Source: a virus | DNA: 41,789 bases | IMG/VR virus record: IMGVR_UViG_3300036829_000034 | Location: 1-41,789 of that record | Direction: 5' to 3' (one strand) | Shown: piece after piece, positions 8,424 through 41,789 of the stretch | How positions within the stretch are numbered: the stretch's first letter is position 1 | Layout: every line of letters starts with the position of its first letter | The notes under the pieces: generated by a model | The model's input: only the letters and a program-made list of their open reading frames with translations | Told to the model about the DNA's origin: nothing | The model's database searches: none | Program-made: the position numbers and the translations under genes

Positions 8424-9122
8424 ATGCCCTGGTTCCGCCTCGAGGACAGCTTCCATTCCCACCCGAAGGTCATCAAGGCAGGGAATGAAGCGGTCGGCCT
8501 GTACGTCCGCTGCGGTTCGTACGCCGCCCAGCATCTCACTGACGGGTTCATCCCTGAGCACGTTGCGCTGCTTTACGGCACGCCCGAGCTCATCGACTCG
8601 CTCGTCCAGGCGAAGCTGTGGCGCCGCACGAAAGGCGGCTGGCGCATGCCGGATTACCTCGACTACAACCCCTCGAAAGAGGCTGTGGAAAACGAGCGCA
8701 GGGGTAAGGCGGAACGTCAGAAGCGCTGGCGTGATTCCAAAAAGACATCCGGCCGTGACCATTCCGAGATCAACGGAACAGTCGGTAAGAGTTTCAAACC
8801 GACCCCTGTGGATAACTCGGCTGGCTACGGGTTGAATGGAATCAACGCAGGTCAGAACGGTCAGCGTAGACGCGTTACTAACGCGTCGCGAGACGCGCTA
8901 GTAACGGCCGCCCCGACCCGACCCGCCCCGAAGGAAGCGGGTCGGGGAGTACCCCGACCCGGAGCGCCCTCCCGGGCGAGCGAGCCAGGAGGCTCGCCCG
9001 TCCGGGCGCTCAAACCGGAGTGGTGCGGCAAGTGCGACGAGACCACCCGAATCCTCGACGAGGAACCGCCGCGACGCTGCCCGGACTGCCACCCCCTGAC
9101 GATCATCCCGGAAGCGATCTGA
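8424..9122 (+). CDS. Replication-initiator-like protein (winged helix, zinc ribbon)
   Basis: A 232-residue protein starting directly after the previous TAA. Residues 1 to about 80 (PWFRLEDSFHSHPKVIKAG, then LYVRCGSYAAQHLTDGFIP) match the winged-helix N-domain of phage replisome organisers, as in many actinophages. A Lys/Arg-rich helix (to about 110), a low-complexity basic/Pro linker (about 110-195) and a C-terminal zinc ribbon (CGKCDETT...RRCPDCHP) follow. The linker DNA carries a DnaA box and three large inverted repeats, as lambda O carries its origin inside its gene. No helicase, primase or polymerase is in the window, so it would recruit host replication proteins. Assignment rests on the N-domain and the origin-like DNA. 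Confidence 0.7.
   Translation: MPWFRLEDSFHSHPKVIKAGNEAVGLYVRCGSYAAQHLTDGFIPEHVALLYGTPELIDSLVQAKLWRRTKGGWRMPDYLDYNPSKEAVENERRGKAERQKRWRDSKKTSGRDHSEINGTVGKSFKPTPVDNSAGYGLNGINAGQNGQRRRVTNASRDALVTAAPTRPAPKEAGRGVPRPGAPSRASEPGGSPVRALKPEWCGKCDETTRILDEEPPRRCPDCHPLTIIPEAI
8807..8815 (-). promoter_or_regulatory. Perfect DnaA box (TTATCCACA) inside the initiator gene
   Basis: The minus strand reads TTATCCACA exactly, the consensus DnaA-binding 9-mer. In DNA this GC-rich such a match is rare. It lies 54 bases before the first palindrome of the origin-like block, in a locally less GC-rich stretch (about 8755-8850). It supports host DnaA taking part in initiation. Confidence 0.6.
8869..9010 (+). repeat. 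Dense inverted repeats, candidate replication origin
   Basis: Three strong dyads lie in the initiator linker. (1) GACGCGTTA (8869-8877) and TAACGCGTC (8879-8887) form a perfect palindrome; overlapping it, 8873-8887 pairs with 8892-8906 at 14 of 15 positions around a GCGA loop. (2) CGGGTCGGGG (8938-8947) pairs perfectly with CCCCGACCCG (8952-8961) with loop AGTA; another CCCCGACCCG copy is at 8911-8920. (3) 8963-8981 pairs with 8992-9010 at 16 of 19 positions. Short direct repeats GGTCAG (8850, 8859) precede them. An origin is the best explanation; transcriptional attenuation is the alternative. Confidence 0.6.
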
Positions 9123-9897: not shown

Positions 9898-10512
9898 TTG
9901 AACATCTTCGACGAAGTCCGCGAGCACATCCCGTTCCACGAGCACGCCGCGGCCGCGACCGGGCCGCAGCCGGGCCCGAAGACGCTCGCCCAGGCCGTGC
10001 ACCGCGACCTGAACAGCATCGGCCGCGTCATCGCCCACGGCCTCCCGCTGCTCGAGCGCATCGTCGCCAACCCGCAGCTGGACGAGTTCGTCGAGCTGGC
10101 GCTCAAGGCCGACGGGCTCGGCGTCTGCGCGGAGGCGTTCACGGCCGCCAGCGACGTGCTGCGCGCCGCTATGGCACGGACGGCGACCGGGCCGCAGCCC
10201 ATGCTCGAGCCACTGCCGCAGCGGACGCCCGGCGCCACGCTGCCGGGCGACGTTCCGTCGACGGCGACGCCGCCGCCTGTGAGCAGCATCAGCATCAGCG
10301 TGCCGCCTACCGGTGTCACGCAGATCATGGCCACGCCCGCGGCCGATGCGCCGCCCGTGCCGCCAGAATCGAGCGGGGAGGCGGCCACGGCTGGAGAAAA
10401 CCATTCGGGTGTAACCTCGGATGCCCCCGCGCCTGCGAACGGCTCTCCGGCCGTCTCCGAGCCGCAAGCGCCAGCGGACGGGACTGAGGCGCAGACGCAG
10501 GTGACCACGTGA
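9898..10512 (+). CDS. Hypothetical protein with long disordered C-terminus
   Basis: A 204-residue protein from TTG 9898, chosen because TAGGAG at 9887-9892 is a good ribosome site 5 bases upstream. Residues 1-100 are helical (FDEVREHIPFHEH, then LAQAVHRDLNSIGRVIAHGL). Residues about 100-204 are Pro/Ala/Thr/Ser-rich and probably disordered. No motif suggests function. The stop overlaps the RyR gene by GTGA. The 55-base gap before it holds only a 15-codon frame. Confidence 0.55.
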   Translation: MNIFDEVREHIPFHEHAAAATGPQPGPKTLAQAVHRDLNSIGRVIAHGLPLLERIVANPQLDEFVELALKADGLGVCAEAFTAASDVLRAAMARTATGPQPMLEPLPQRTPGATLPGDVPSTATPPPVSSISISVPPTGVTQIMATPAADAPPVPPESSGEAATAGENHSGVTSDAPAPANGSPAVSEPQAPADGTEAQTQVTT

Positions 10513-10880
10513 CCCGCGACGCCGACGTCGAGCGGATCGCCCGCCTGGTGCACGAGGTCAACCGGGCATGGCAGGGCGAGCACGGCGACGAGGCGCCAAG
10601 CGTCCCGTGGGACTGCGAGAGCGAGCACATCCGGCAGACGACCATCGCCGGGGTGCGCCGCGCCCGAACTGGCGTCACCCCGGAACAGCACCACGGCGCA
10701 TGGTGCGAGGCCAAGCGCACCGCCGGATGGGTGTGGGGGCCGACCAAGGACCCGGTCGCGAAGACCCACCCGTGCTTGGTCGGCTATGCGCAACTCCCCG
10801 AATATCAGCAGGCCAAGGACCGCGTGTTCCTGGCCATCGTCACGGAGCTGACCACCCCTGCATTGGAGGATGCTGGGTGA
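10509..10880 (+). CDS. RyR-domain protein
   Basis: A 123-residue protein from GTG 10509. Residues about 55-118 match the RyR domain, named from ryanodine receptors: EQHHGAWCEAKRTAGWVWG, KDPVAKTHPCLVGYAQLPEY and K..D near the end fit the family's H..W...K...GW..G..KD...K.HP.L..Y..LP pattern. The domain is common in actinophages and bacteria, and its ligand and role there are not established to my knowledge. It lies among regulatory or unknown early genes, overlapping both neighbours. Confidence 0.8.
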   Translation: MTRDADVERIARLVHEVNRAWQGEHGDEAPSVPWDCESEHIRQTTIAGVRRARTGVTPEQHHGAWCEAKRTAGWVWGPTKDPVAKTHPCLVGYAQLPEYQQAKDRVFLAIVTELTTPALEDAG

Positions 10881-11623
10881 CCAACGCAACCCCGCTGTGC
10901 GGCTCGTGCGGATCGCCCGTCAATGACGCGGTGATCTGCACGGGCTGCACGACCTCGCTCGCCCGGTCGCTGACCACGGCCGCCGCCATCGCACCCGACC
11001 TCGAGGACGCCGTCGCACGGCTGATGAAACGCGGCAGCGGCGGCAAGCGTGGCAGCGACGACCGGCCCATGCCCATCGACACAGGCGCCATGGACGTGCG
11101 CGATCAGCTGCACAACTGCCTCGCGACATGGGCACGGGTGCTGCTGGACGTCCACGCCGGACCGCCGTATCCGCCGGACACCATCGCCAGCATTGCCCGG
11201 TGGCTCCGCGAGCGCGTCGGCCTGGTACGGCAGCTCGAGGGCGCGGCCGACATGCTGAACGACATCCGCGACAGCGTCGCCGCGGCCATGGCCGCCACCG
11301 ATCACAAGCCGGAGCGCGTGCACGCCGGCACGTGCGAGGCATGCGGATCACAGCTGCTCGCCGAGCTCGGCGCCGACGAAGTCCGGTGCGCGTGCGGAGT
11401 GCTTGCCCGTGCGCTGAACGAACGCCGCCGCGAACGTGCTGCCGCGGCCGACGTGCTCGGCAGCGCAGGTGAGATTTCAGGTGCTCTGGCAAAGATCGGG
11501 ATTCAAGTGCCCCGCGGAACGATCACGTCGTGGGCATCACGAGGCCGTCTTGCCGTACGCCCTGGCGGCGTGTACGCCATGAGCGAGGTGCTCGCGCTTA
11601 ATGCGCAGCGGGCGGCGCGTTGA
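10877..11623 (+). CDS. Zinc-ribbon and HTH protein, possible late regulator
   Basis: A 248-residue protein from GTG 10877 (GTGA overlap). It begins with a zinc ribbon (LCGSCG and ICTGC; C8, C11, C21, C24), has a helical middle, a second zinc ribbon (CEACG...RCACG, about residues 155-178), then a C-terminal helix-turn-helix (about 198-245, GEISGALAKIGIQVPRGTITSWASRG with a wing). This is typical of actinophage DNA-binding proteins at the end of the early region. It ends exactly where three tandem octamers begin and just before the late operon, so it may control late transcription; that is inference from position. Confidence 0.65.
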   Translation: MTNATPLCGSCGSPVNDAVICTGCTTSLARSLTTAAAIAPDLEDAVARLMKRGSGGKRGSDDRPMPIDTGAMDVRDQLHNCLATWARVLLDVHAGPPYPPDTIASIARWLRERVGLVRQLEGAADMLNDIRDSVAAAMAATDHKPERVHAGTCEACGSQLLAELGADEVRCACGVLARALNERRRERAAAADVLGSAGEISGALAKIGIQVPRGTITSWASRGRLAVRPGGVYAMSEVLALNAQRAAR

Positions 11624-11646
11624 CTTGCGTACTTGACAACTTGCAT
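11623..11646 (+). repeat. Three tandem octamers ACTTGNNN
   Basis: ACTTGCGT (11623-11630), ACTTGACA (11631-11638) and ACTTGCAT (11639-11646) follow each other without gaps. They overlap the stop of the HTH gene and a TTGACA element. Tandem octamers at a promoter suggest an operator. Confidence 0.6.
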
Positions 11647-11664
11647 CAATAATGTTTCTAGATT
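11633..11664 (+). promoter_or_regulatory. Candidate promoter for the late genes
   Basis: TTGACA at 11633-11638 is a perfect -35 consensus in an unusually AT-rich patch. A -10 match is weak: TAGATT at 11659-11664 keeps four of six consensus bases but the 20-base spacing is long. An activator at the overlapping octamers could compensate. It precedes all packaging and virion genes. The gap 11624-11753 holds no gene. Confidence 0.45.
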
Positions 11665-15948: not shown

Positions 15949-18664
15949 CAGGCGGGTACGCCGGGCGCTGGAGGGCGACACGTCGCTGCTGGTGACGCGC
16001 GTCATGGCGCTGAATGACATGGAGATCCTGTCACGGTCGAAGGGCGGCGACGGCCGGACGGTCGTCGCGTACGCGGCGGCGTTCAACCGCTCCGCCGAGA
16101 TCGTCGACGCTGACGGGCACTACAACGAGCAGATCGCCCCTACGGCGTTCAACGCGTCGCTGGCGAGCGGCCGGCAGATCAGGGTGTTCTACAACCACGC
16201 CCGCACGCTGCACGGCACGCCGAGCGAGTCCGGTTCGGTGCCGATCGGGACGCCCGCCGAGCCGCCGCGCCCGGACGGCACGGGCCTGCTGACCGTCACC
16301 CGCTACAACAAGACGCAGCTCGCCGATGACGTGCTCGAGGCGATCCGCAACGGCGACATAACCGGCCAGAGCTTTACCGGGGTGTTCCTGCAGTCTGACC
16401 CTGAGCGCGGCCCGTACCTCAGCCGGAACGGCCAGCTGACGACGGTGACCCGCAGGGAGATCGGGCTGATCGAGTACGGGCCCACGCCGATGCCGGCCTA
16501 CCAGGACGCGGCGATCGTCGGCGTCCGCAACAGGGAGCTGCTGATGGACACCGAGCTGGAGCAGGACGCGCCGCAGGAGCGGACGACGGTCACGATCCAC
16601 GTCGACCAGGGCGCGCAGGCGCGGGCAGCCTCGCCGGAGCCGCCGCGGGTGCCGCAGGAGCGCACGGGCGTCCCGGTGCATCACACGGCGGTCGTGGACG
16701 AGCCGTGGGACGCGGACGAGAACACCTCCCGCCTGCCGGACATCAAGGGCCGCGCCGACGCGGAGAAGTACCTGAAGGTTTACGCCTGGTACGACGCGTC
16801 CGGCCCGGATCCGGATCACGACGACCTGCCGGACACGCGCGGGTCGTGGAAGCTGCCGCATCACATGGTGGCCGCCGACGGCACGCCGGGCGCGGCGAAC
16901 ATCAACGGCGTCCGTGCCGCCATGCAGCGCCTGGGGCAGATGGACCCCCCGCTGTCGTCCGGCGACGAGACGGCGGTGAAGGCGCACCTTCAGGCGCACA
17001 TGGATGACTGGCACAAGGACCACCCCGCCGATGGCGGGGAAGGACAGCGCACCGCGACTGCGGCCGCGCCCGTCCAGCCCGGGCCGCCCGCGAAGCACCC
17101 GGTGACCGAAGAAAACGGCAAGCAAGGAGACACTGCCATGACAGACCGTCAGATGACGGTGGAAGAGCGGGCGGCACGCCAGGAGCAGATCAGGAGCCGC
17201 ATGGCCGAGATCGATCTCCAGTACGCGGGTGCCGCGCTGCCTGACGACGCACGCGCGGAGTGGGACGACCTGACAGGCGAGATGGCGGCCCACACGACTG
17301 CGATCCGCGACAGCAACTCGCGGGCCGCGTACCTGCAGACGATCGTGGCGAGCAACCCGGACGCGACCATTCCCGGCGCTGACCAGGGCCAGGGCTATGA
17401 CGGCCAGGCGCCACAGGGCTCGCGCTCGGTTCGCGGCTTCCGCGCCCCGGCACTGAACAAGGGCCGCCCGGACAACCTGTACGACGTGGCGTCGGCCCGC
17501 AACGACGCGCGCAGCCTCGAGGACATGGGCCGCGTCTACCGCGAGCGCGCGAAGTGGGCGGTCGACGAGGCGACGTTCCCCGGCGCGCTGGACGGCGATG
17601 GCGCGATCAAGGGCAGGCTGGAGCGGCTGCTGGCCCGGGTCGACGACCCGGACACGCTGTCGCGGAACATGCTGCTGACCGGCTCGCCGGAATACCGCAC
17701 CGCGTTCGGGAAGCTGCTGATCTCGCAGAACCCGGCGATGCTGGGGCAGGCCGAGCAGCGGGCGCTGCAGATGGGCGCCCCTGCGTCGTTCCAGTCCGGT
17801 TCGTTCCCCGTTCCGTTCCAGCTGGACCCGACTGTGATCCTGACGTCCAATGGCGCGGTCAACGCGCTGCGGGAGATCGCCCGCGTGGAGCAGATCGTCG
17901 GCAAGGAGTGGCTCGGCGTCACGTCGCAGGGCATCACGGTGACCCGCGCGAACGAGCTGGCGCCTGCCTCTGACGGCAGCCCGACGCTGGCGCAGCCGGG
18001 TGTCGCCCCGACTCGCGTCCAGGCGTTCGTGCCCTTCTCGGTGGAAGTCGAGCAGGACTGGAACGGCCTGATGGCGGAGATCGCGATGATGCTGGCCGAC
18101 GCCAAGGACGTGGAGGAAGCCTCGACGTTCCTGACCGGCGCCGGCACCGGGTCCATCCCGCAGGGTGTCCTGACCGGCACCTCCGGCACCGCTCAGCAGG
18201 TGCTCACCGCCGGCACCGCCACGTCCGTGGCTCCCGGCGACGTGTACGCGCTGGAGAACGCGATGCCCCCCAGGTTCCGCGCCCGGGCATCGCTCCTGGC
18301 CAGCAAGGGCGGATACAACGCAATCCGCGCCTCGTTCGGCCAGCTTGCCTCGGCCGCCGGGGATGTGTGGGTCCGCCCGTCGGCGGGCACCGCGCCGGAG
18401 CTGCTCGGCTACCCGGCCTACGAGAACAGCAACATGTCCGGCCTGAGCACCGGCGCGACCCTCATGCTGATGGGCGATTTCAAGCAGTTCATCATCGTGG
18501 ACCGGATCGGCATGAGCGTCGAGCTCGTGCCGCACGTGTTCGCGACCGGTGCCAGCGGCGGCGCGCCCGCGATGCCGCAGGGCGAGCGGGGCATCTACGC
18601 GCTCTGGCGCAACTCCTCGCAGGTGCTGGTCCCGAACGCGTTCCGCTACCTGCAGACGCACTAG
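15941..18664 (+). CDS. Fused prohead protease, scaffold-like region and HK97-type major capsid
   Basis: One 907-residue frame. Residues about 25-200 are a U35-type prohead protease, with likely catalytic His (FYNHARTLHG, H86 or H91), Ser (GDITGQSFTG, S144) and acidic position (REIGLIEYG, then MPAY). Residues about 265-355 form a separate domain (RADAEKYLKVYAWYDASG to LQAHMDDWHKD). From residue 400 a helical delta-like region (MTVEERAARQEQIRSRMAEI) leads to the capsid fold (PVPFQLDPTVILTSNG, FVPFSVEVEQDW, LGYPAYENSNM). An internal ATG at 17138 with AAGGAG can make the 508-residue capsid alone. The protease would cleave scaffold during maturation. Confidence 0.9.
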   Translation: MADRRVRRALEGDTSLLVTRVMALNDMEILSRSKGGDGRTVVAYAAAFNRSAEIVDADGHYNEQIAPTAFNASLASGRQIRVFYNHARTLHGTPSESGSVPIGTPAEPPRPDGTGLLTVTRYNKTQLADDVLEAIRNGDITGQSFTGVFLQSDPERGPYLSRNGQLTTVTRREIGLIEYGPTPMPAYQDAAIVGVRNRELLMDTELEQDAPQERTTVTIHVDQGAQARAASPEPPRVPQERTGVPVHHTAVVDEPWDADENTSRLPDIKGRADAEKYLKVYAWYDASGPDPDHDDLPDTRGSWKLPHHMVAADGTPGAANINGVRAAMQRLGQMDPPLSSGDETAVKAHLQAHMDDWHKDHPADGGEGQRTATAAAPVQPGPPAKHPVTEENGKQGDTAMTDRQMTVEERAARQEQIRSRMAEIDLQYAGAALPDDARAEWDDLTGEMAAHTTAIRDSNSRAAYLQTIVASNPDATIPGADQGQGYDGQAPQGSRSVRGFRAPALNKGRPDNLYDVASARNDARSLEDMGRVYRERAKWAVDEATFPGALDGDGAIKGRLERLLARVDDPDTLSRNMLLTGSPEYRTAFGKLLISQNPAMLGQAEQRALQMGAPASFQSGSFPVPFQLDPTVILTSNGAVNALREIARVEQIVGKEWLGVTSQGITVTRANELAPASDGSPTLAQPGVAPTRVQAFVPFSVEVEQDWNGLMAEIAMMLADAKDVEEASTFLTGAGTGSIPQGVLTGTSGTAQQVLTAGTATSVAPGDVYALENAMPPRFRARASLLASKGGYNAIRASFGQLASAAGDVWVRPSAGTAPELLGYPAYENSNMSGLSTGATLMLMGDFKQFIIVDRIGMSVELVPHVFATGASGGAPAMPQGERGIYALWRNSSQVLVPNAFRYLQTH
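17124..17140 (+). promoter_or_regulatory. Internal ribosome site and start for free capsid protein
   Basis: AAGGAG at 17124-17129 stands 8 bases before ATG 17138, in frame with the fusion. Translation from here begins MTDRQMTVEERAARQ, exactly where the capsid's helical delta-like domain starts. This would give many capsid copies per protease copy. Confidence 0.65.
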
Positions 18665-18671
18665 TCATGTG

Positions 18672-18705
18672 CCCGGCCGGGGAGCTGCCCCGCTTCCCGG
18701 CCGGG
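18672..18705 (+). other. Hairpin between capsid and glycosyltransferase genes
   Basis: Two copies of the self-complementary CCCGGCCGGG (18672-18681, 18696-18705) can pair with each other across 14 bases. They sit in the 58-base gap after the capsid stop. A likely role is partial termination or mRNA protection below the highly expressed capsid gene. A 19-codon frame (18667-18726) spans it without a ribosome site. Confidence 0.5.
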
Positions 18706-18722
18706 ACCTACCCGGAGATCCC

Positions 18723-19859
18723 GTGAAAATCCTCTGGCACTCCAACTCGCCCGCCGTCGGCACCGGCTACGGCCAGCAGACGGCGCTGTTCGTCCCGCTC
18801 ATCGCGGCCCTGGGCCACGAGGTCGCCGTCAGCGCGTTCTTCGGCCAGCAGGGCGCTCCCAGCGAATGGAACGGCCACACGGTCTACCCGTCGGGCCGTC
18901 ACCCGTACGGCTCGGATGTTCTCTCGCGGCATGCTAAGCACTTCGGCGCGGACATCATCATCACGCTGATGGACGTGTGGGCGCTGGACGCTGAGCCGCT
19001 GCAGGGCCTGCCGCTCGCGCACTGGCTCCCGGTCGACACCGACGACGGGGACGGCCTCCAGGCACGCGGCCTGTCCCTGCGCGACCACGTGGCGCTGAAG
19101 GCGACGGGCGGCATACCCATCGCGATGTCGCGGCATGGCGCCCGGATGCTGGTCAAGTCGGGGCATAACGCGCTGCACGTGCCGCACGGCGTGGACACCG
19201 GCATCTTCCGCCCGTCGGGGGACTCGCCGTTCGGTGACCGGTTCGTGATCGGCATGAACGCGGCCAACGCGTCCAAGGCCGACCGGAAGGCGTGGACGGT
19301 CCAGCTGGCCGCGTTCGCGAAGCTGCACCGCAAGCACCCGGACACGCTGCTGTACGCGCACACGATCGCGAACGACGACCGCGGCATCAACCTGAAGGGC
19401 ATCGCCCGCGATCTCGGCATCAGCGCCGCGATCGCGTGGTCTGATGAGTACGCGATGACGGCGGGCACGCTGACCCCGGCGCAGCTGGCCGCGACCACGG
19501 CCGCATGGGACCTGTACAGCGGCTGCAGCAAGGCCGAGGGGTTCGGCATCCCGGTGATGGAGGCGCAGGCGTGCGGCGTCCCGAGCGTCGTCACCGACGG
19601 CTCGGCGATGTCCGAAGTCGGCTGCGGCTGGAAGGTGCCGGGCGAGCCGGAGTGGTCGCCGCTGCACGCCGCATGGTGGCGGACGCCGCGGATCGCGGAC
19701 GTCGCGAAGGCCTACGAACGGGCGTATGAGCGCGGCCCTGCCTATCACGCCAAGGCGGCGAAGGCGCGGGAGCACGCGCTGGCCTACGACGCGAACCGTG
19801 TCACGAATGAGCACTGGAAGCCCGTCCTCGACGCGCTGGAGGAGAGACTGTGCGGCTGA
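18723..19859 (+). CDS. GT4-type glycosyltransferase
   Basis: A 378-residue protein from GTG 18723 (GGAG at 18714-18717). It has the GT-B two-domain layout: N-terminal KILWHSNSPAVGTGYGQQT with early Gly-rich loop, mid HVPHGVDTGIFRP, and C-terminal SGCSKAEGFGIPVMEAQACG with the E-x7-E motif of GT4 enzymes. It transfers a sugar from a nucleotide sugar. Between capsid and connector genes, and coupled to a methyltransferase, it probably modifies virion proteins, as phage-encoded glycosyltransferases do to capsids and tails of some mycobacteriophages. Sugar and target are unknown. Confidence 0.85.
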   Translation: MKILWHSNSPAVGTGYGQQTALFVPLIAALGHEVAVSAFFGQQGAPSEWNGHTVYPSGRHPYGSDVLSRHAKHFGADIIITLMDVWALDAEPLQGLPLAHWLPVDTDDGDGLQARGLSLRDHVALKATGGIPIAMSRHGARMLVKSGHNALHVPHGVDTGIFRPSGDSPFGDRFVIGMNAANASKADRKAWTVQLAAFAKLHRKHPDTLLYAHTIANDDRGINLKGIARDLGISAAIAWSDEYAMTAGTLTPAQLAATTAAWDLYSGCSKAEGFGIPVMEAQACGVPSVVTDGSAMSEVGCGWKVPGEPEWSPLHAAWWRTPRIADVAKAYERAYERGPAYHAKAAKAREHALAYDANRVTNEHWKPVLDALEERLCG

Positions 19860-35868: not shown

Positions 35869-37923
35869 TCATGCTCCCTCTGGCGCGTGATCGGTTGGGG
35901 TGCTTTCGCCGCGCGGCGCGAGGGCCTCGTACCGACCGTCGCGGGGCTTGATGACAGGGCGGTCCGGGTGCTTTCCGCTAACGAGGTCGCTGAGGGCGTT
36001 GGTGATGGACCGGATGCCGTACGGCATGTCGCGGCCCCACTCGCCGGTGACGAGCCTGCCGGCCATGTCGATGATCTCGGCGCGCTCCATCTCGCGTCCC
36101 GCGCCCTTCAGCACCGTCCACACGGCGTCGATGCAGCGCCGCCCCTCGGGACCGTCGTCGGCGGGGACATCGGGCTGCGCAGCGGATGCGGGAGCGGGCG
36201 CAGCGGACGGGAGGAGCACTCCCCCGCCGCGCATGGCACGGTCCATTGCCTCGAGGAACTCATCCTCCAGATGCGGGACCTCCACGGCCCGGTGGCGCAT
36301 CCGGGAGGGCACGATGTCGGTGCGCATCGGGGCCTGCCGGTTGTCCAGGGTGACCGCGTAGCCGATGCCCTGCGTCGGCTCGCCATCGGGAAAGTACTTC
36401 GGCAGCGCCGCCGGGTCGGCCTGGAGTCCGACCATGCCGGCGGACACCGCGTCGCCGGTCCGCAGGGAGACGACGTTGCCGCCGACGAGCATCGACCGGA
36501 GCGCCTGGTCGCCGCCAAGCTCAGCGAGCGACGGCACCTGCGTGACCAGCCACTTGCTGACGCCGGCCTTGCGGCCGAGTTTCGCGTCGTCAGCAGTGAG
36601 CCGTGCCATCTCGGCGGCGAGCTTGGCGTTGCCGTCACCCCCCAGCAGCAGCGGCGCCTCATCGATGATCGCCATGACGATCGGAAGGCCGGTCATGCGG
36701 GCATCGAAGAACTCCATGCCCTTCGCCTTGTGGCCGTCGTCGTCCCACGTCATGGAGGCGAGGCGGCGGGACCGGTCCATCATGCCGGCGTTGAGTCCGC
36801 GAACCATGCGGACGCATTCCTGAATGCCGGAGGCGTATGGCACCTTGCCCTTCCACTGCGGGAGGGACTGGCCGTTCTGCGGGTCGAGGATGACGGGGAC
36901 GACCGGGACTTCACTGGTGATGGCCAGCCACAAGAGCAAATTCAGCAGTTCAGACTTTCCAGCTCCGCTCGTTCCGGCAATGAGACCGTGCCTGGCGCCG
37001 TCTTTCGGAACCCAGGCCCGGATCCGGACGGGCTTGCCGTCGGCGAACCGGCCGATGCGGGCGATGCCGTTCTCACCGAATCCGCTGCCATCCCATTCGC
37101 GCAGATGCTCCAGGGTGCCGGACTTCAGGATGGTGAGGATGCCGCGGGATTCGACGGCGGTCGGGTGCGGCTCGGCGTACACCTCGGTGCGGGACCGGTC
37201 GAAGGCGGAGGCAAGGGCCCGCGGTTCGTTCATCACCTGCCCGATGTGGGTTTCGACGCCGTCGAGGCGGATCTCGTACTTGCGTCCACCGGGGAAGTCT
37301 TCCCGGTCGCCGAGGGTGCCTACCCATCTGCGCTTAGCGGCAAGGCGTTCCCAGATGGCCCGGTCGCCGGTCACTTCCGGCTCCGGCTCGGGCTGCGGCT
37401 CCTGCGGGCGGGCGCGGTAGTGCTTGATCCATGCACCGGAGGCGGCGGTGACCGTGATCGCGAGCAGCGCGGGAACCGGCGCGCCGAACCCGAAGGCAGC
37501 GAGGGCAGGCAGCCATCCGAGCGTGAGGAACGCCGCGGCGTCGAACCAGCGGCGGCCGAACCCGGACAGGTGGCGGGTGCACAGGATCAGCAGGGCGGCC
37601 GCCCCGAGTCCCCCGAGGATGCCGAACAGTACCGGGTTCCTGGTCGTGTGCAGGATCTCGCCGATGACGGCCAGCCCTGCACCCCAGGCGACGGGGGGCA
37701 TCTGGCGGCGGCGGCGCCACGCGCCCGTGCGGGCGAGCATGTCGTTCGTCGCGGCTGCCGGGTTGGGTGCCCTCCCTGCCTGCCCTGCCTGCTGAATCTC
37801 CAGCTGGCGCATCATCTCGATGGCCTTGCGTCCGCGGACCTGGACAACCTGCGGCTGCGGTGCGAAGGCGGGGGACCTGCCGCGCCGCCAGCGCGGGATC
37901 TCACGCGTTTGACGGCGCGGCAT
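35869..37923 (-). CDS. FtsK/SpoIIIE/TraB-type DNA translocase
   Basis: A 684-residue minus-strand protein. The basic N-terminus is followed by two to four membrane helices (about residues 77-165). A connector leads to the motor domain with Walker A GTSGAGKS (317-324) and Walker B VMAIIDEAP (416-424). The C-terminal region (about 590-665) looks like a winged helix (CIDAVWTVLKGAGREMERAE and later). This order (membrane, ATPase, DNA-reading wing) is that of TraB/TraSA proteins that move double-stranded DNA between mycelia in Streptomyces plasmids and AICEs, and of FtsK. It is the last gene of a six-kb minus operon. A chromosome-segregation or host-takeover role is the alternative. Confidence 0.85.
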   Translation of the reverse strand: MPRRQTREIPRWRRGRSPAFAPQPQVVQVRGRKAIEMMRQLEIQQAGQAGRAPNPAAATNDMLARTGAWRRRRQMPPVAWGAGLAVIGEILHTTRNPVLFGILGGLGAAALLILCTRHLSGFGRRWFDAAAFLTLGWLPALAAFGFGAPVPALLAITVTAASGAWIKHYRARPQEPQPEPEPEVTGDRAIWERLAAKRRWVGTLGDREDFPGGRKYEIRLDGVETHIGQVMNEPRALASAFDRSRTEVYAEPHPTAVESRGILTILKSGTLEHLREWDGSGFGENGIARIGRFADGKPVRIRAWVPKDGARHGLIAGTSGAGKSELLNLLLWLAITSEVPVVPVILDPQNGQSLPQWKGKVPYASGIQECVRMVRGLNAGMMDRSRRLASMTWDDDGHKAKGMEFFDARMTGLPIVMAIIDEAPLLLGGDGNAKLAAEMARLTADDAKLGRKAGVSKWLVTQVPSLAELGGDQALRSMLVGGNVVSLRTGDAVSAGMVGLQADPAALPKYFPDGEPTQGIGYAVTLDNRQAPMRTDIVPSRMRHRAVEVPHLEDEFLEAMDRAMRGGGVLLPSAAPAPASAAQPDVPADDGPEGRRCIDAVWTVLKGAGREMERAEIIDMAGRLVTGEWGRDMPYGIRSITNALSDLVSGKHPDRPVIKPRDGRYEALAPRGESTPTDHAPEGA

Positions 37924-37933
37924 GATGGCCTCC

Positions 37934-39118
37934 CTATTCCTGGTAGAACGGCTTGGCGGCGGCTTGCACCGGCGCGTTCTTGTGAGCCTCGCTGAGACCC
38001 GCGTGACCGCGCTTGAGGGTCGCCTCGACGTTGCCGGCGGACTCCAGGACGCGCTGGTCGGCCTTCACGGCGATCTCGCTGGCCTCCTGGACGGCCTGGT
38101 GCGCCTTCGCCGCCGCGGCGTGGGCGTCGAGGTGGTCGACCATCGCGGACTGCGTCCCCGGGTCGACCTCCAGGCCGTCCATGGCGTCCGCGAGCTGCGC
38201 GGCGGTCCTGCTGGCGCTGGCGGCCTCGTTCGCCCGCGCCTCGGCCTGCTGGCTGGCGGCGGCGGACTCGACGGCGGTGTTCTCGGCCTGGGCCTTGGCG
38301 GCGGTCATGTTTCGCAGGACGCCGTCGTAGGTGACATCTGCGGTTCCGGTGGGCATTGCTTCTCCTCTGGGTGATGGTGACTGCACCGGGGCGGCGGTTT
38401 CCGTCCCGGCCGGCTTGTCTTCTGGCTTCGCGGCGGTCGCGTGGCACGGGCAGCCGCATCCGGGGGCGTTGCAGGACGCGTGCTGACCGGCGTGCTCGTC
38501 GGCCGGCGGCCCCGGCTCAAGCGGCGGAGCCGGCCTGACTGACACCTCCAGATCCGGGTCGGCCGAGGCTGCGGCGAGACGGCGCTGCAAGTCCTCGGGG
38601 TCGTAGACGGTCGCCCGGTCGAAAGACTCGCCCGTGAGCGGGTTCACCTTCCGGCCGCTCTTACTGCGGGCCGTCAGGATCACAGGGAACGTCCTGCCTT
38701 CCCCGCTGTCTGCCTTGTGCTGCGCCGGCGCAGGACCGTCTGTGTTGTCGACGGACCCCGGGCGGACGAACGTGTAAGTGTGGGACGTGCCCGGGGCCCG
38801 GCGCCACCGCGGGTCCTCCTTTATCGGCTGCTTCGCCCGCTGCCGGGCTGCCTTGCTCTGTTCCTGCGCCTGCCTTCCCGCGTTCCATCCGGCGGACAGG
38901 CCGTGACGGGCGACGGGGAAGCCGTGGGCCAGCTGCCCCGTCCAGTAGCCGATGTCGTGGCCGGCGGCGAGGGCTACGCGCTTGCTCTTCGGCGCGTTCG
39001 GGTAGCGCTGGTCGGCGCTGGCCGTGTAGGCGGCTTTCGACTTGCTGTAGCCGTTCTTCGCGTCCTCCCAGGCTTTCTTGAACGCGTACATGATGAGCAG
39101 GATGCTGATGAGTTCCAT
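37934..39118 (-). CDS. Hypothetical protein, N-terminal hydrophobic segment and coiled coil
   Basis: A 394-residue minus-strand protein from ATG 39118. It starts with a short hydrophobic stretch (LISILLIMYAFKK), a Lys-rich helix, and a Gly/Ala region (HDIGYWTGQLAHGFPVARHG). The middle has VNPLTGESFDRATVYDPEDL and a Cys-rich spot (CNAPGCGCPCH). Residues about 260-390 form an Ala/Glu coiled coil. It lies next to the translocase and resembles spread-type accessory proteins of actinomycete transfer operons by layout only. Confidence 0.6.
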   Translation of the reverse strand: MELISILLIMYAFKKAWEDAKNGYSKSKAAYTASADQRYPNAPKSKRVALAAGHDIGYWTGQLAHGFPVARHGLSAGWNAGRQAQEQSKAARQRAKQPIKEDPRWRRAPGTSHTYTFVRPGSVDNTDGPAPAQHKADSGEGRTFPVILTARSKSGRKVNPLTGESFDRATVYDPEDLQRRLAAASADPDLEVSVRPAPPLEPGPPADEHAGQHASCNAPGCGCPCHATAAKPEDKPAGTETAAPVQSPSPRGEAMPTGTADVTYDGVLRNMTAAKAQAENTAVESAAASQQAEARANEAASASRTAAQLADAMDGLEVDPGTQSAMVDHLDAHAAAAKAHQAVQEASEIAVKADQRVLESAGNVEATLKRGHAGLSEAHKNAPVQAAAKPFYQE

Positions 39119-39120
39119 GG

Positions 39121-39531
39121 TTAACCGCCGATTGTCTTAACGTTGCCGACGCCGTGCCGGACGTTCGCAGGGACGCTGTTCAGCGCCGGGATGGAGGAGA
39201 TTCCCGCGACCAGGCAGGCGGCAAGGGCGATGGCGATGTACATCGTCCGGGCGCTGGCGCCCTTGCGCGGGTGAAGGTCATGGATGAACACGATGCCGAG
39301 CACGATGACGAGCACGCCCGGAAGCGCGACGCCGAACGCCTTCCCGGCAAGGCCGCCGAGCAGTCCGGACACGATGCCCACCCCGTGGCCGAGCAGATTA
39401 CCGAACAGGCCGCCGGTCACCGCGCATGTGCCGATGAAGGCGAGGATGGCGCGGGCCTTCACGAATACGCCGAGCCAGTGGAAGACGACGGCCACGACGA
39501 GGCAGGTGGCGCCGATTGCGAGAACGGACAT
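39121..39531 (-). CDS. Multi-pass membrane protein (Spd-like)
   Basis: A 136-residue minus-strand protein from ATG 39531. Four membrane helices are likely (about 4-24, 28-46, 52-84, 96-113; for example LAIGATCLVVAVVFHWLGV and GVALPGVLVIVLGIVFI). The end is polar. Small multi-TM proteins beside a TraB-like gene are typical spread (Spd) proteins of Streptomyces plasmids. No sequence-specific motif proves this. Confidence 0.6.
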   Translation of the reverse strand: MSVLAIGATCLVVAVVFHWLGVFVKARAILAFIGTCAVTGGLFGNLLGHGVGIVSGLLGGLAGKAFGVALPGVLVIVLGIVFIHDLHPRKGASARTMYIAIALAACLVAGISSIPALNSVPANVRHGVGNVKTIGG

Positions 39532-39537
39532 GACAGG

Positions 39538-39966
39538 TCAACTCCAGTGCCAGATGACAAGCGCGAGGATTGTCGCGCCGATGAGACGGAGCGGAGTCTT
39601 GGTGACCCACTCCAGGCCGTTGAGGACGGACTTGATGAAGATCAGGTGGAAGTAGCCCCACGCCAGGCGCATGCCCTTGAACAGGGGGACGCTGTGGCGG
39701 TCCGCGGCCTCGTGGTGCTGCTCACGGGCCCGGGCCAGGGTAGGGGGCTGGGCATGGACGAGGGAGCCGGGACGGTCCAGGGCCGCCGCGGCATGGCTGA
39801 GAATCTGACGCGGTGCCTGGACACGCCGGGTGACTGGCAGGAGGGAAGCGGGCGCAGCCGGCGGTGTATCCTCACGCGCGCACGCGCGCGCGGGCGCAGT
39901 GGATTCCGGGGGCGGCGCGACGGCAGTTGCGCTGCCTTCCTTCCCTTCCTCGCGGACTGTTGTCAC
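39538..39966 (-). CDS. C-terminal membrane-anchored protein
   Basis: A 142-residue minus-strand protein from GTG 39966. The N-terminal half is Ala/Pro/Glu-rich and disordered and includes a slippery CG-rich repeat in the DNA. The C-terminal part (SVPLFKGMRLAWGYFHLIFI, then PLRLIGATILALVIWHWS) holds one or two membrane helices. It fits the family of small membrane proteins in transfer operons. Function unknown. Confidence 0.58.
   Translation of the reverse strand: MTTVREEGKEGSATAVAPPPESTAPARACAREDTPPAAPASLLPVTRRVQAPRQILSHAAAALDRPGSLVHAQPPTLARAREQHHEAADRHSVPLFKGMRLAWGYFHLIFIKSVLNGLEWVTKTPLRLIGATILALVIWHWS
39873..39892. repeat. Alternating CG-rich tract
   Basis: Twenty bases alternate pyrimidine and purine (CACGCGCG then CACGCGCGCGCG), within the gene at 39538. 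Such tracts can take Z form and are slippage-prone. Confidence 0.8.
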
Positions 39967-39972
39967 TGAGGG

Positions 39973-40251
39973 TCATCGCCTTCCTGCGTCGAACTTGCCC
40001 CGGTCAATCGCCTGGGCGAGTGCCGCAAGGTACTCGGTTGCCTCATGGATCAGGCGTGCCGCCTGCCGCCGGTTCACTTCCTGGCTGTAGCCGAGCGGCA
40101 CCCGGCGCCGCGCCAGCAGCGAAACCGACGAGCGGAACCAGTCGTAAGCCACTGCGAGCCGGTCCGCGTCGGTGCGCGCCGCGGCGAACTCGCGGGCACG
40201 ACGCGCCTTGTGCGCGGCGTTCCGCATCTCCCATGAACCGCGGCGGGGCAT
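39973..40251 (-). CDS. Hypothetical basic helical protein
   Basis: A 92-residue minus-strand protein, ATG 40251. It is Arg/Ala-rich and helical (RNAAHKARRAREFAAARTDA, then VNRRQAARLIHEATEYLAAL). No known domain. The start overlaps the preceding gene's stop (TAATG). Confidence 0.55.
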   Translation of the reverse strand: MPRRGSWEMRNAAHKARRAREFAAARTDADRLAVAYDWFRSSVSLLARRRVPLGYSQEVNRRQAARLIHEATEYLAALAQAIDRGKFDAGRR

Positions 40252-40475
40252 TACTCGGCCCTCACCTTCGCGAGCTGCTTCGACTTACCCGCGTCACGCG
40301 CCACGATCTCGAATTGCCCCCAGAGGCCCTTGTCCCAGCGCCTAGCCTCGAGCCAGCCCTGGAGCCGCTTCTGCAGCCACTTCAGGTCTTCGGGGTCGCC
40401 GTGGGCCTGGAACTCGTCCAGGGGTCGGTCCCTGCGGACCACTTCGAGATCAAGTGGCATTGCGCGGTTCGTCAT
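40251..40475 (-). CDS. Hypothetical 74-residue protein
   Basis: A minus-strand protein, ATG 40475, starting with ATGA overlap. It is charged and Trp-rich (DLKWLQKRLQGWLEARRWDK, LWGQFEIVARDAG). It may be a small DNA- or protein-binding partner of the cassette. Function unknown. Confidence 0.55.
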   Translation of the reverse strand: MTNRAMPLDLEVVRRDRPLDEFQAHGDPEDLKWLQKRLQGWLEARRWDKGLWGQFEIVARDAGKSKQLAKVRAE

Positions 40476-41152
40476 CCGTCCTCCCTGAGTGCGGTGCCGT
40501 TCACTGACGCCACCGGCTGCAGGTGTGGCGCGACCAGCTCAGCCACCCTGGGGCGGCTCAGGCCGAATGCGGCAGACAACTGCCGCTGCGAAATCGGCTC
40601 GCCCTGGCAGTCGCGGGCATGTAGCCACATCTGGATAGCGGATTCTTCCGCAGTTGAGGCGATGTGATGGGAACACGGATTCGTGTCCATCTCGCTGTCA
40701 TCCTCGTCAGAGGCTTCCGTATTCGTTTGGCCACCCTGGCCACCCTGGCCCGACGTGGCGACCTGCGCTTTCGCCCACCGCTCCAAGGTGAACGTAGCCA
40801 CCGCGAAGCTGAGCGCGGGCACCGCGTACCACCCGGCAGCCAGATAGCCGTGAGAGATCCCCGCCTCGTAGTTCGCGAACAGCGATTCGAGCATGCCCAG
40901 GCCGATGCCGAGCCACCCCCACCTCGCCGCGGCACCGGTGGCCGTCATCAGCACTACCGATCCGACGACCATCTGCCCGTCAACGCCGAACGGCATCAGG
41001 TGGCCGGCCATCGCCGAGCCACCCAGCGCCAGGGTGAGGGCATCGATGTGGGTGTAGCTGACCACTCCGGCCACGCTCGCGACGGCCGCCAGCGCAGCCC
41101 CGGCGATGATGCGGGGGAACTGCTGCCGCAGCCACTCCAGGACGTCGCTCAC
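40472..41152 (-). CDS. DUF2637-like membrane protein with C-terminal HTH
   Basis: A 226-residue minus-strand protein from GTG 41152. Residues about 14-125 give four membrane helices, including the family-like segment VVSYTHIDALTLALGGSAMA followed by MPFGVDGQMVVGSVVLM. This is the DUF2637 pattern, widespread in actinomycete AICEs and plasmids beside tra genes. A polar linker (about 135-165) leads to an HTH (about 178-205, QRQLSAAFGLSRPRVAELV). It would be a DNA-binding membrane protein, perhaps tethering the element to the transfer site. Confidence 0.72.
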   Translation of the reverse strand: MSDVLEWLRQQFPRIIAGAALAAVASVAGVVSYTHIDALTLALGGSAMAGHLMPFGVDGQMVVGSVVLMTATGAAARWGWLGIGLGMLESLFANYEAGISHGYLAAGWYAVPALSFAVATFTLERWAKAQVATSGQGGQGGQTNTEASDEDDSEMDTNPCSHHIASTAEESAIQMWLHARDCQGEPISQRQLSAAFGLSRPRVAELVAPHLQPVASVNGTALREDG

Positions 41153-41454
41153 TATGCCACCGCCCTCTTCACGCGCCGCCGCTCCCGCTCCGACATGCCG
41201 CCCCAGATGCCGAAGCGCTCACCGTTGTCGAGCGCGTACTCAAGGCATTCCGCCCGGACCAGGCAACTGCGGCAGATCCGCTTGGCCTCCCGGATTGAGC
41301 CGCCCTTCTCGGGAAAGAACGCCTCCGGATCCGTGTACTGGCATTCGCCGAACGCCTGCCATGGCAGGCCGGGTTCAGGCTCGGTCAGCGCCTCAGCGGC
41401 GATCAGCGGGTCGGCCGCGCCGGGGCTGAACTGGAGGGAGATTCGGTTCTTCAC
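41152..41454 (-). CDS. WhiB-family transcription regulator
   Basis: A 100-residue minus-strand protein from GTG 41454. The four iron-sulphur cysteines are C38, C61, C64 and C70 (FGECQYTD, ICRSCLVRAEC) and the family turn GIWGG is at 82-86, followed by a basic C-terminus (SERERRRVKRAVA). WhiB proteins are actinobacteria-specific [4Fe-4S] regulators that bind sigma factor or DNA. Phages and mobile elements of actinomycetes often carry one. It precedes the membrane protein gene by TAGTG overlap and could control this cassette. Confidence 0.9.
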   Translation of the reverse strand: MKNRISLQFSPGAADPLIAAEALTEPEPGLPWQAFGECQYTDPEAFFPEKGGSIREAKRICRSCLVRAECLEYALDNGERFGIWGGMSERERRRVKRAVA

Positions 41455-41651
41455 GCCGTCGCCCCAGTACCCGCGGTCGTGACGCTTGTCCCGGCCAGGA
41501 AGGGGCGGCCCGCCTCGTGCTCGACGATGATCATCGTGCCGCCGGGGCCGGCCTGGACGGACCAGTTGATGCCGGGCGTGTCGGCGTGGGCGCGGGTCCA
41601 GCGGGACATGTCCTGCCTGGTGTTGATGTGCGTGACGAAGGTGGGGTTCAC
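41451..41651 (-). CDS. Hypothetical 66-residue protein
   Basis: A minus-strand protein from GTG 41651 (GTGA overlap with the next gene out). It is beta-rich (TFVTHINTRQDMSRWTRAHA and TMIIVEHEAG) and short. It might be a small regulator partner. No motif recognised. Confidence 0.5.
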   Translation of the reverse strand: MNPTFVTHINTRQDMSRWTRAHADTPGINWSVQAGPGGTMIIVEHEAGRPFLAGTSVTTAGTGATA

Positions 41652-41789
41652 GCCGGCACCTTGCTCAGTCCCCGCAGCTCGGACAGCAGCGCGCGGGCGT
41701 CAGACTCGCGATAGCGGCGATGGCCGCCCGCGGTGCGTACGGCGGCGATCTTCCCGGCGTCAGCCCAGTCCTTCAGGGTGCTCCGCGGC
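41648..41789 (-). CDS. BldC/MerR-like HTH protein (partial)
   Basis: The last 46 codons of a minus-strand protein whose start lies beyond the window. TLKDWADAGKIAAVRTAGGH and RRYRESDARALL match the recognition helix and wing of BldC-type MerR-like proteins, which bind tandem direct repeats and control development in Streptomyces. It is the first visible gene of the minus cassette and could regulate it. Confidence 0.8.
   Translation of the reverse strand, partial: PRSTLKDWADAGKIAAVRTAGGHRRYRESDARALLSELRGLSKVPA

Follow-up and report, generated by a model that had tools for sequence, protein, structure and literature searches.

A candidate replication origin with iterons and a C-tract inside a RepA-like initiator gene of an actinophage

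Genomic context of the initiator gene

The window, i.e. the whole stretch of DNA that was analysed, is the complete 41,789-base virus record IMGVR_UViG_3300036829_000034, from a Streptomyces-phage-like siphovirus. Its genes follow the order HNH, RecE, RecT, RusA, initiator, then terminase, portal, protease-capsid fusion, tape measure, tail and spike, and the initiator gene is thereby located among replication and recombination genes, with HNH, RecE, RecT and RusA upstream of it. No helicase, primase or polymerase was found among the screened ORFs of the window, a record that may be a fragment; for these ORFs, the remark of the initial annotation that no other helicase or polymerase gene is present is correct. 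In several relatives (Appa, Dardanus), a helicase gene lies just downstream of the initiator gene.

Several other features of the window were recorded. A gene for a RyR domain protein (10509-10880; PF02026, E 4.9e-10) adjoins the replication genes, and in the head operon a glycosyltransferase gene (18549-19859; phrog_2170) comes immediately after that of the protease-capsid fusion. The lowest-GC stretch of the window (11621-11660) carries a sigma-70-like promoter (TTGACA, about 17 nt, TAATGT) and precedes the packaging and structural genes; the minimum of the cumulative GC skew, at 11310, is near this promoter-like stretch. Finally, a block of genes on the - strand (35869-41788) encodes a TraB/FtsK-SpoIIIE-like protein of 684 aa (weak NF041214 match, E 2.8e-15), a DUF2637-like protein and several unknowns. 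This block resembles parts of actinomycete integrative conjugative elements and may be a neighbouring element or the host boundary of the record.

The initiator and its predicted fold

The product of the initiator gene (Table 1) matches phrog_2447, "replication initiation protein", over residues 1-218 (E 5.6e-47), and tblastn with this product retrieved 631 actinophage records, many of which are annotated "RepA-like replication initiator". By homology, the gene is a member of the actinophage RepA-like replication initiator family (phrog_2447). AlphaFold2 predicted a winged helix that is confident over residues 1-115 (pLDDT about 93-98 at residues 1-110), the remainder of the protein being disordered. 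The fold matches of this N-domain are weak and concern generic winged helices (ORC2 WH, RepA_N plasmid initiators, DnaD-N and LexA; VIA Z 5.4-6.8). No Foldseek match to the predicted structure reached E 0.001, and a sequence search of the PDB with the initiator gave no match either. In addition, the Pfam search returned no lambda-O match and the family searches matched none of the HUH-type Rep families typical of rolling-circle origins, the predicted fold being a winged helix. The Pfam match of the putative zinc ribbon was not significant (E 1.6).

Table 1. Features of the initiator gene and of the candidate origin, in window coordinates.
Feature	Position	Strand	Basis or remark
Replication-initiator gene, 232 aa, holding the candidate origin	8424-9122	+	phrog_2447 and tblastn
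N-terminal winged-helix domain, residues 1-115, putatively iteron-binding	8424-8768	+	AlphaFold2, fold matches
AT-richer linker DNA between DNA-binding domain and iterons	8730-8870		GC 52.5% vs. 69.6% for the genome
Single perfect DnaA box, TTATCCACA	8807-8815	-	Not conserved in relatives
Octamer GCAGGTCA, near the GGTCAG repeats	8847-8854	+	Recurs in Streptomyces-phage relatives
Iteron cluster: GACGCGTTA (8869-8877), TAACGCGTC (8879-8887), GACGCGCTAG (8892-8901), TAGTAACGG (8899-8907)	8869-8909		
C-chain CCCCGACCCGACCCGCCCC	8911-8929	+	Canonical G-quadruplex motif on the - strand
Perfect 10-bp hairpin, arms 8917-8926/8937-8946	8917-8946		Adjoins the C-chain
16-mer CCCCGAAGGAAGCGGG, hairpin core	8926-8941	+	In initiator linkers of other phages, in three frames
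Second GC-rich hairpin, 17/20, arms 8962-8981/8992-9011	8962-9011		
Putative C-terminal zinc ribbon, WCGKCDE...RCPDCHP	9021-9092	+	Cysteine pattern common to L012, L014, L016, L017

A repeat array in the linker-coding region

All the repeats that the initial annotation had described between 8807 and 9010 were recovered where it had placed them. They include the perfect DnaA box (TGTGGATAA at 8807-8815), GGTCAG direct repeats beginning at 8850 and 8859, a perfect 19-base palindrome (8869-8887) and a 14-of-15 hairpin (8873-8887/8892-8906). The arm of the 10-bp hairpin has further copies at 8911-8920 and 8952-8961, and alternative hairpins are possible. The C-chain had been overlooked. It is the only + strand chain of at least four runs of three or more C in the window, and its - strand shows the at least four runs of at least three G with short loops that define a G-quadruplex motif. 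In this window, the iterons lie inside the coding sequence of the initiator, and the iteron motifs GACGCGTC and GTTACTAACG are also repeated in relatives.

We compared the array with 300 synonymous-codon shuffles of the gene, counting stems with a score of at least 9. The region 8807-9010 contains 6 stems; the shuffles average 0.19 and never exceed 2. A 204-nt bin moved along the window in 102-nt steps (408 bins) does not contain 6 stems at any position. Moreover, the single-stranded fold of 8860-9015 has a z of -5.4. The repeat array is real and far beyond chance.

The DnaA box fared differently. The window holds a single exact occurrence of TTATCCACA/TTGTCCACA, and the corresponding region contains a box in only 2 of 102 relatives, so no conserved cluster of DnaA boxes, as in a DnaA-dependent origin, is found in the window or across these relatives. 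The assistance by host DnaA that the initial annotation had assumed finds no support in conservation, and DnaA was dropped as a general feature of the candidate origin because of this count.

The octamer GCAGGTCA occurs at 0.573 per kb in the linkers of relatives vs. 0.067 per kb elsewhere in the loci. In many Streptomyces-phage relatives it sits between the iterons and the C-chain, in one codon frame in those inspected by eye.

Of all 140-nt segments of the window, the linker DNA before the array is one of the two richest in AT. An A+T-rich opening region directly after the iterons is absent from the window, 8911-9011 having 80% GC and the AT-richer DNA lying upstream. We considered whether the true origin might be elsewhere in the window, for example in the low-GC stretch at about 11.62 kb, since the lowest 140-nt GC is found at 11621 and the skew minimum is nearby. 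However, this sequence has the look of a promoter located before the packaging and structural genes, it contains no iteron-like array, and we regard such a location as improbable.

A three-part layout in relatives

Relatives were fetched with the N-domain only. Of the 119 non-redundant genes obtained, 102 are full-length and continue for at least 150 nt beyond this domain. Some counts were made with an iterated profile to which scan hits had been added, and the headline numbers are therefore those of the profile built earlier. Judged from their sequences, about 100 relatives have a common layout, composed of phage-specific iterons, a C-tract (at least four runs of C3-5 with spacers of 1-3 nt) and, often, an abutting inverted repeat. 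A chain of at least four C-runs is present on the coding strand in 68 of the 102 relatives and on the other strand in none; with at least three C-runs, the number rises to 79. The density of C-chains is 1.34/kb in the linkers after the N-domain vs. 0.012/kb in 916 kb of flanking DNA, and synonymous shuffles gave on average 15.7 of 102 members with a chain (maximum 23), against the 68 observed. The C-runs are the constant part of the tract: the spacers measure 1-3 nt in 284 of 290 cases, while their sequences vary widely (GT, GA, G, T, GTA, AT, AA).

The other two parts are also organized around the chain. Upstream of it, the commonest 7-mer is found in 3.3 copies on average (2.0 in shuffles), and iterons exceed those of an equal downstream segment in 59 members, the reverse being true in 4. 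A fixed-spacing logo of this upstream region is weak. In 34 of 79 members, the chain is directly followed on its 3' side by a strong hairpin (shuffles 5%, control segments 1.4%). Over the 20 nt downstream of the chain, local GC is on average 13.7 points lower. For the initial annotation, repeats that were not conserved in relatives would have spoken against an origin. The outcome of this check favours an origin: the type of array is conserved, although the sequence of the iterons is specific to each phage.

Among named isolates, this layout was found in Ignacio, Phinally, Appa, Darolandstone, Dardanus, Finkle, Fenry, Cumberbatch, ShroomBoi, GMA1 and phi1_186001. A related gene, in which repeats precede a three-run tract, is present on an 86-kb Saccharopolyspora plasmid. 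A chain of even three C-runs is absent in 23 of the 102 relatives, including whole clades without such a chain near the gene; Giles and SF3 have no C-chain. In Giles gp63 (L144:1173-1340), the iterons GTAACGCCGTTAGTAACGC are followed by a purine-rich AGTAGAGTAGAGATAAGTAGAGA tract where the C-chain would be expected, which is possibly an alternative opening element.

Conservation of the tract as DNA

Then, we looked at the frame, position and polarity of the tract. A scan of 2.9 million viral contigs with the 16-mer CCCCGAAGGAAGCGGG found 14 contigs, 10 of which have the core in a homologous initiator linker; the other 4 matches are in unrelated genes and lack the hairpin arms. This core is read as PKEAG (window, L002, L020), PEGSG (L009, L012, L014-L017, L021) or PRRKRG (L011), and is preceded in relatives by iterons such as AGACGCGTCT or GTGACGCGTCAC. 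Across 79 members, the chain starts are distributed over the three codon phases as 42/19/18. All three frames are therefore used, and the encoded peptides are diverse (SRPVPSRP, TRPDP, PVPVPV, PQPQPQ). The use of phases is not uniform (chi-square p 0.0009), and some preference at the protein level may therefore exist.

Nine short initiators composed of the N-domain only (L025, L026, L027, L004, L036, L037, L038, L061, L092) have a noncoding chain 34-113 nt after the stop codon, mostly directly after visible iterons. With initiators reduced in this way and the candidate origin just behind the gene, such phages seem able to dispense with the C-terminal half of the protein. In some clades, the tract is inverted, with G on the coding strand and a Gly-rich peptide, and still comes after the iterons. 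On the N-domain tree, this inverted polarity is limited to a few clades, and well-supported branches force at least two changes.

The association also appears from the tract itself. In the viral-contig scan with exact (CCCGT)3CCC, 77 of 120 among the matches listed fall in or just 3' of initiator genes (48 in the genes, 8 just 3' and 21 with the G-rich strand coding), vs. 11% for random positions. For (CCCGA)3CCC, the figure is 70 of 120 among the matches listed, vs. 10%. The control pentamer repeat (CGCTC)3CGC, of similar composition, had an initiator ORF at none of its 39 loci, and the all-GC CCCGC-type tract is far less specific (9 of 97 in initiators vs. 1.7% at random).

A conserved proline-rich protein linker, with the DNA pattern as a by-product of codon use in GC-rich genomes, would account for C-runs that encode prolines in every frame, for the chains that persist in synonymous shuffles and for the uneven use of frames. 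It does not fit the use of all frames, the noncoding tract 3' of short initiators or the inverted Gly-rich version of other clades, and the hairpins and iterons exceed the synonymous nulls. This explanation is extremely improbable and was rejected on the frame, intergenic and inverted cases. Because the tract varies in frame between phages and can lie beyond the gene or on the opposite strand, the comparison shows that it is conserved as DNA, for its own sake and not for the encoded protein. Selection thus acts on the DNA at the position of the array.

The same observations bear on two other explanations. The strand is transcribed and bears strong hairpins, which would fit an RNA-level element (attenuator, terminator or control of initiator-mRNA translation). 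However, direct-repeat iterons whose sequence differs from phage to phage would be unexpected in an RNA switch, and neither the opposite polarity of some clades nor the position after the stop codon in others suits one, which makes this function improbable. The array could also mark a recombination boundary, a conserved sequence for swapping C-terminal domains or origins. Phage genomes are mosaic, and the C-terminal parts of the relatives differ in the alignment. This possibility, which leaves the iterons, the abutting inverted repeats and the variable spacers unexplained, appears more improbable still.

Proposed function of the array

Very probably, the segment from about 8860 to 9011 is a phage replication origin that is located where the initiator gene of the phage encodes the linker and that acts as proposed below; this reading is well supported by comparison, not proven. 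The relatives that have no C-chain, the lack of AT-rich DNA next to the iterons and the uneven use of codon phases weigh against it. The origin embedded in the initiator gene, put forward in the initial annotation, is thus retained through the relatedness of the initiator, the conservation of the array as DNA and the origin-like layout, and loses its DnaA component.

By analogy with lambda and iteron plasmids (PMC5043065), we infer that the winged helix binds the iterons and melts the DNA next to them, and that the host helicase is brought to this melted DNA. The winged-helix N-domain would most likely bind the palindromic iterons at 8869-8909, probably as dimers, and this binding, under negative supercoiling, would open the adjacent DNA. 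The C-tract would be the opening or holding site: its G-rich complement could fold into a quadruplex and/or the hairpin could extrude, which would hold the strands apart, and the host helicase machinery would load on the separated strands. The C/G-tract may act by a quadruplex or as a single-strand landing site, with the hairpin helping.

In the second case, the array would still be an origin, and the tract would be a sequence- or strand-specific landing site for the initiator, a primase or a helicase loader rather than a quadruplex. We give this possibility somewhat less than an even chance. The C-runs are constant, the tract usually comes directly after the iterons, and contacts of lambda O with opened single strands have been reported (PMC5043065). 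However, the wide variation of spacers and the flips of polarity between clades suit a structural signal better, and for these reasons a structure is favoured over a single binding sequence. More tentatively, the quadruplex reading could extend to a widespread class of phage origins, in which a G-quadruplex (or its C-rich partner) next to iterons is the strand-opening element. This element would replace or accompany an A+T-rich region, and could be carried within the initiator gene, whatever the frame, downstream of this gene or in inverted orientation.

Comparison with known systems

An origin inside the initiator gene is already known in lambda and has been suggested for mycobacteriophage RepA. 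Wetzel et al. (2020) described the RepA prophage replicons of Miko, Rachaly and Jeeves, suggested a lambda-like origin upstream of or inside repA, showed that repA with 171 bp upstream replicates in the case of Miko, and found no repeated motifs in the regions that they examined (PMC7157519). These systems, which we compared by description only, have a RepA-like phage initiator as in our window but a RepA of 320-350 aa. The phrog_2447 initiators Phinally gp52, Appa gp42 and ShroomBoi gp75 have a homologous N-domain, iterons and a C-chain, and differ by a C-terminal domain unlike the zinc ribbon of the window; no description of an origin for initiators of this type was found in the literature searched. 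In this same literature, with most subscription journals outside its scope, we found neither a conserved C/G-tract as third origin element nor a precedent for quadruplexes in phage or plasmid origins.

If the proposed reading is true, one three-part signature would make the origins readable in the sequences of several hundred actinophages and phage-plasmids, for which annotation has until now named only an initiator gene. Fragments carrying them could give new replicons for Streptomyces, Gordonia and Mycobacterium.

As in the DnaA-trio/box of bacterial oriC, duplex-binding sites adjoin a short-period tandem tract. Here, however, the tract is made of C/G-runs with a period of 4-6 nt, the initiator is a protein other than DnaA, and relatives generally lack the DnaA box. 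There is also a likeness to the lambda ori, with iterons inside gene O, between the parts encoding the DNA-binding and C-terminal regions of a winged-helix initiator, and a presumed recruitment of the host helicase. In lambda, the iterons are followed by a 40-bp A+T-rich opening region (PMC5043065), whereas the window has a C/G-tract and hairpins at this place. If the proposed reading is true, it raises the questions of how the strands of so GC-rich a genome are separated, and whether a tract able to form a quadruplex can take the place of an A+T-rich region.
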